This document shows positions 4,123-4,447 of a stretch of DNA of 64,000 bases, in pieces (the first letter of the stretch is position 1; each line of letters begins with the position of its first letter). Source of the DNA: Nitrosopumilus cobalaminigenes (GTDB lineage Archaea; Thermoproteota; Nitrososphaeria; Nitrososphaerales; Nitrosopumilaceae). The stretch spans positions 1,076,590-1,140,589 of the forward strand of contig NZ_CP026993.1 of the NCBI RefSeq assembly GCF_013407145.1, in the 5' to 3' direction. The position numbers and the translations under genes were made by a program. The notes below the pieces were generated by a model. The model ran no database searches. It was not told where the DNA came from and saw nothing but the letters and a program-made list of their open reading frames with translations.

Positions 4123-4217
4123 GAAGATTATCTTTTAGAGTTACTAAAAAAGGCCAGGGTAATTGTGACATAATGATATAGCAAAGACAAAAAAACCACT
4201 CTCAAAGTAATTTAGTT

Positions 4218-4314
4218 GGACCGGTCGTCTAGTTTGGTTTGGATGACGCACTCACACTGCGTAAGAGAAATTACTTCTCCGCAAAGGTCGTGGGTTCAAA
4301 TCCCATCCGGTCCA
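4218..4314 (+). tRNA. tRNA-Val(CAC) with a non-canonical intron
   Basis: Acceptor strands GGACCGG and CCGGTCC pair perfectly around discriminator A4314. The D stem is GTC/GAC. The anticodon stem ACGCA/TGCGT closes the loop CTCACAC, whose anticodon CAC (4253-4255) reads valine GTG. The T arm is GTGGG-TTCAAAT-CCCAT. The gene is 97 bases, 22 too long; the surplus lies between the anticodon stem and T stem and fits an intron at tRNA position 44/45. Removing it leaves 75 bases with the normal variable loop AGGTC. No CCA is encoded beyond the discriminator. Confidence 0.9.
4264..4285 (+). other. tRNA intron with bulge-helix-bulge motif (position 44/45)
   Basis: A central 4-bp helix TGCG (4258-4261) with CGCA (4281-4284 region) is flanked by a 3-base bulge TAA on the 5' side and AAG on the 3' side. 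An intron-closing helix GAGAA/TTCTC has loop ATTAC. This is the helix arrangement cut by archaeal splicing endonuclease. Cutting after the second bulge base on each side releases 22 bases and restores a 5-base variable loop. Base pairing is seen directly; splicing is inferred. Confidence 0.75.
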
Positions 4315-4447
4315 TTACATCACTTTGTCAAATCGCAGAAGGTTTGTAATCTCACATTTTACAACATAGTTGAAAATGTGTATACGGTAATACCTACTAA
4401 CATTAACAAACTCACCATTATTGCTTTTTTATCATTTCGAGGTAGTT

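Follow-up and report, generated by a model that had tools for sequence, protein, structure and literature searches.

The 64,000-nucleotide stretch of the Nitrosopumilus cobalaminigenes genome that we analyzed (the window) contains a tRNA-Val gene with the anticodon CAC, whose positions 4264 to 4285 are almost certainly a noncanonical archaeal tRNA intron. The genome (G000) is a single contig of 1.56 Mb; the introns of its tRNA genes, its two-subunit splicing endonuclease (EndA), and its overall make-up suggest an ammonia-oxidizing thaumarchaeon. The gene comprises the following features:

4218..4314, + strand: tRNA-Val(CAC) gene, unspliced, without encoded CCA (ARAGORN, Rfam)
4218..4263, + strand: 5' exon, 46 nt, tRNA positions 1-44 (splice model)
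4246..4250, + strand: 5' strand of the anticodon stem, ACGCA (27-31), whose CGCA part is repeated in the intron
4253..4255, + strand: anticodon CAC
4258..4261, + strand: 5' strand of the core of the predicted bulge-helix-bulge (BHB) motif, TGCG (39-42), which in the mature tRNA belongs to the 3' side of the anticodon stem
4262..4264, + strand: 5' bulge TAA, predicted cut after base 2 (general cut rule, which fits the intronless relatives)
4264..4285, + strand: intron at 44/45, 22 nt, composed of A, a 5-bp hairpin with a 5-nt loop, CGCA, and AA
4265..4279, + strand: intron hairpin GAGAA-ATTAC-TTCTC, inner helix of 5 bp (4265-4269/4275-4279)
4280..4283, + strand: 3' strand of the BHB core, CGCA, within the intron
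4284..4286, + strand: 3' bulge AAG, predicted cut after base 2 (general cut rule, which fits the intronless relatives)
4286..4314, + strand: 3' exon, 29 nt, tRNA positions 45-73 (splice model)

ARAGORN reports a tRNA-Val with the anticodon CAC at 4217-4315 without an intron, and the match to Rfam family RF00005 (4218-4314, 49.4 bits) leaves an insert in the variable region unmatched. A script that searched for a 4-bp core flanked by 3-nt bulges, with a helix on the inner or the outer side, and that passed the spliced product to ARAGORN, found a single solution for this gene: 22 nt are removed after nucleotide 46 (tRNA position 44). In this solution the 4-bp core TGCG/CGCA lies between the 3-nt bulges TAA and AAG on opposite strands; BHB motifs are cleaved after the second base of each 3-nt bulge. 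Without 4264-4285, the gene is 75 nt long and yields a complete cloverleaf with a variable loop of 5 nt, AGGTC, which ARAGORN reads as tRNA-Val(cac). The preliminary description had placed a 22-nt intron with a 4-bp core at 44/45 rather than 37/38 and had predicted a 75-base mature form; the script recovers each of these features, and the relatives discussed below agree with the site and the core. It had also called the motif perfect, a term that is too strong: the inner helix (h') has 5 bp, but the exon-side helix (h) has 2 bp only, C38-G46 and A37-U47. Under the strict hBHBh' definition given in the passages of PMC7714728 available to us, in which the flanking helices have at least two Watson-Crick pairs, the intron in the window only just qualifies. 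The motif is more than a chance arrangement: when the 23-nt segment was shuffled 200,000 times by single nucleotides, the in-register 4-bp Watson-Crick core and the 5-bp inner helix occurred together in three shuffles; the comparative evidence for the intron is far stronger than this shuffle test.

Among 250 genomes of the family, a hand tally places the intron at 44/45 in at least 152 and finds the gene intronless in at least 45; from the other 53, which include nearly complete genomes (e.g., G008), the gene was not recovered. The tally draws on a pattern that includes the core, on one that fixed only the anticodon loop and the T loop (run separately on 52 of the genomes after G205), and on a further search of 14 of the unrecovered genomes, which resolved four of them. 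The pattern that includes the core matches in 108 of the 250 family genomes and in 79 of the 95 genomes of the genus (the genus being counted by hand), although these numbers do not test the core because the pattern demanded it. When 61 genomes were searched with the DNA, 31 full-length matches with at least 81% identity were obtained, the window included, all of them from the same genus, and 30 of these (window included) were taken as loci. The exons of these 30 loci are nearly constant, and their introns measure 16-22 nt; a strict exon-intron expression fits 27 of them, and the remaining three, read by eye, each deviate by a single substitution, located next to the 3' cut or within the variable loop. 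The recovered genes are intronless in genus g34 (12 of 12), in most of g35 (29 of 32), and in most of g38 (4 of 5), so that both intron states occur inside g35 and inside g38. In family f8, genome G340 has a like match, which may reflect assembly contamination or transfer.

The core strand of the intron copies positions 28-31 of the host's anticodon stem, and the three strands covary: CGCA/TGCG/CGCA is replaced by CGCT/AGCG/CGCT, and most other variants are GU pairs. All four core pairs are kept in 59 of the 60 rows of a 60-row table, and 11 of 12 rows are fully paired in a three-strand table; G082, in which one core pair is broken, is the sole exception to the CGCT rule. Both tables are selections typed from listings. 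The larger one contains 36 of the 43 intron genomes that lie outside the pattern that includes the core (the seven left out, G084, G098, G100, G243, G246, G248, and G252, are close to rows that were used) and 11, the window counted, of the 108 genomes that match that pattern. Matches that the broad pattern made by chance (e.g., G121, G133, G001, and G144:C17) were dropped, as were matches from f9 and f10 for which a simple 44/45 parse was not obtained (G058, G301, G295, G353, and one of two in G361). Across the 60 rows the intron at 44/45 ranges from 16 to 48 nt. The exon-side helix is missing in 8 of 11 rows from f10 and is therefore not conserved beyond the family.

Several genes of this comparison are unusual in their own right. 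At 48 nt, the intron of G081 (L095) exceeds all others observed at 44/45 and has an extended hairpin. In family f10, the tRNA-Val(CAC) gene of G355 (L090) seems to be interrupted twice: besides the intron at 44/45, about 15 nt near 29/30, within the 5' strand of its anticodon stem, look like another intron. G385 (L093), from the same family, has two tRNA-Val(CAC)-like genes about 1.4 kb apart, one intronless with the odd variable loop AACGC, the other with a 44/45 intron and no recognizable 5' half; they may represent a chimeric, decayed, or split tRNA.

Instead of being spliced out, the insert could be retained as the long variable arm of a class-II-like tRNA-Val. It does fold as a 5-bp hairpin between the anticodon arm and the T arm, and the cloverleaf with this variable-arm hairpin scores slightly better than the best BHB form (-28.8 versus -27.2 kcal/mol). 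The modeled BHB forms span -27.2 to -25.3 kcal/mol, and folding energy does not discriminate between the two structures and is uninformative as a criterion; the unconstrained minimum (-35.4 kcal/mol) keeps the core and the hairpin and misfolds the remainder into the T stem. A retained arm is very improbable on other grounds: in the 45 or more intronless genomes of the family, Val(CAC) is a class-I tRNA without the insert, an arm would have no need for a CGCA linker whose sequence follows that of the anticodon stem, the length of the insert varies from 16 to 48 nt, and the passages of PMC4033280 available to us name Ser, Leu, and bacterial Tyr tRNAs as those with long variable arms. The isoacceptor homologues of Val(CAC) do not all retain the arm, as would be expected of those of a class II tRNA. 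We reject the class-II arm on the strength of the intronless orthologues and of the covariation between intron and anticodon stem.

The intronless relatives also bear on the exact position of the noncanonical intron. G206, from the same family, reads TGCGTAGGTC, which is exactly the predicted spliced junction of the gene in the window, and in family f10 the intronless gene of G331 and the predicted spliced gene of G059 have the same sequence across the anticodon arm and the variable loop, GGCGAAAATC. The comparison with orthologues, which the preliminary description had named as a check, thus gave the predicted junction. The cut in the same intron might be displaced from 44/45 by a base or more, because A44 is followed by another A and the 3' bulge is A-rich, which in principle permits register shifts; but this is hardly credible, since the sequence of G206 and the symmetrical geometry of the two bulges yield the same cut. 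Least probable of all is that the gene is a decaying, unexpressed tRNA copy with an insertion: the only observation found in its favor is the Rfam score, which is below that of most tRNAs of the genome, whereas the gene is the sole CAC gene among 43 tRNA matches, its exons hardly vary within the genus, and its insert is constrained.

For the noncanonical intron, we infer the following path from precursor to mature tRNA. In the precursor, UGCG (39-42), on the 3' side of the anticodon stem, would pair with the CGCA copy near the 3' end of the intron, and this core together with the intron hairpin would form the BHB. A splicing endonuclease of the (alpha-beta)2 type would cut once in each bulge, at UA^A and at AA^G, and free the 22 nt; RtcB would then ligate position 44 to position 45, and the freed UGCG would re-pair with 28-31 to give a normal 75-nt tRNA-Val(CAC).

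The genome encodes candidates for each of these enzymes. Two tRNA_int_endo (PF01974) genes lie outside the window. One encodes a protein of 178 aa with a crenarchaeal-type EndA match (2cv8 at 5.2e-43; 3p1z, which we take to be the A. pernix EndA, at 1.3e-40); the catalytic residues Y116, H124, and K154 are present, and K35 aligns with position 44 of 3p1z_B, if the numbering of this chain equals the residue numbering, as we assumed. The second subunit (199 aa) matches 1a79, presumably the M. jannaschii EndA, and lacks the histidine of the active site. Its gene (L074, G000:C1 near 414871) sits between the genes for tRNA-Gly(GCC) and tRNA-Glu(CTC). An RtcB gene is present as well (596 bits). According to the portions of PMC6379350 accessible to us, the loop lysine K44 of A. 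pernix, in a crenarchaea-specific loop, gives broad specificity, and by alignment K35 is taken to be this lysine. The two subunits, a single Tyr-His-Lys set, and the loop lysine are the gene-level features of an (alpha-beta)2 EndA with the crenarchaea-specific loop, an enzyme type that cuts relaxed BHB motifs, as stated in the accessible parts of PMC4090602 and PMC6379350. As judged from the protein sequences, the genome thus probably encodes the enzyme type expected for relaxed BHB cutting.

RF00005 detects 43 tRNA genes in the genome, and a further search adds only one sub-threshold fragment. Judged by their length and by ARAGORN, seven of the tRNA genes bear introns (Val(CAC), Arg(CCT), Met(CAT), Gln(CTG), Tyr(GTA), Leu(CAA), and Ser(GGA)); the script placed no intron position for the Met, Gln, and Ser genes. 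The intron of tRNA-Tyr(GTA) is a canonical 37/38 intron, for which enzyme and motif class are presumably the same as for Val(CAC). However, in Tyr(GTA) the anticodon stem remains closed and serves as the exon helix, whereas in Val(CAC) it must open for the core to form. The gene for tRNA-Arg(CCT), outside the window (L062 101-193; G000:C1:1505402-1505494, + strand), has an 18-nt D-loop intron after nucleotide 15, with the core GCGC/GCGC, in which a D-stem strand pairs with a copy of its partner strand; ARAGORN alone reports no tRNA at this locus. Genes for tRNA-Leu(TAA), Pro(CGG), and Arg(CCG) are absent from the 43 RF00005 matches in the whole genome, and D-arm patterns for Leu and Pro, also applied to the whole genome, returned only genes already listed. 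Because a tRNA-Leu(TAA) gene at least is expected, one or more of these three may be hidden by introns or splitting.

The passages of PMC8450103 available to us describe, for tRNAscan-SE 2.0, a covariance model and 107 noncanonical introns in Thaumarchaeota. The Val(CAC) intron shares with these the BHB, a site outside 37/38, and apparently the phylum, and, as with them, the mature tRNA is more regular than the unspliced one; we found no difference from them, in passages that carry no list of positions. For Crenarchaeota and others, the excerpt of the review PMC4090602 lists noncanonical introns at 20/21, 25/26, 29/30, 45/46, 59/60, etc.; the Val(CAC) intron resembles these in its site outside 37/38 and in the two-subunit endonuclease, and 44/45 is not spelled out in that list, which ends in "etc.". 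Our literature search found no text naming 44/45 in Val(CAC), and the part of PMC3293823 available to us contained no matching passage. The intron may well be catalogued already, since tRNA databases were outside the reach of this search. The Val(CAC) intron is confirmed as real and well supported, and it belongs to a class that, going by the passages of PMC8450103, is already described for Thaumarchaeota. Its value for understanding endonuclease specificity, which the preliminary description had mentioned, is incremental because such introns are a documented class in this phylum.

A more speculative reading, to which we give a low probability, combines stem mimicry, recurrent gain or loss at 44/45, and a locked anticodon stem, and regards 44/45 as a reused insertion site and splicing as a quality gate for the anticodon arm. 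The intron would carry a copy of a host stem strand (28-31 in Val(CAC), a D-stem strand in Arg(CCT)), and any tRNA stem would therefore be a ready-made half splice site; gain or loss would recur at 44/45, both states being found inside g35, g38, and f10; and the anticodon stem of the precursor would be locked until splicing. For the noncanonical intron itself, the meaning is otherwise one of routine annotation, as ARAGORN, which has no model for introns of this kind, misses the one in Val(CAC). Beyond this, the family offers a natural series for the study of endonuclease specificity: a single site at which the intron measures 16-48 nt and the exon-side helix is present or absent, together with intronless sister genomes as controls.
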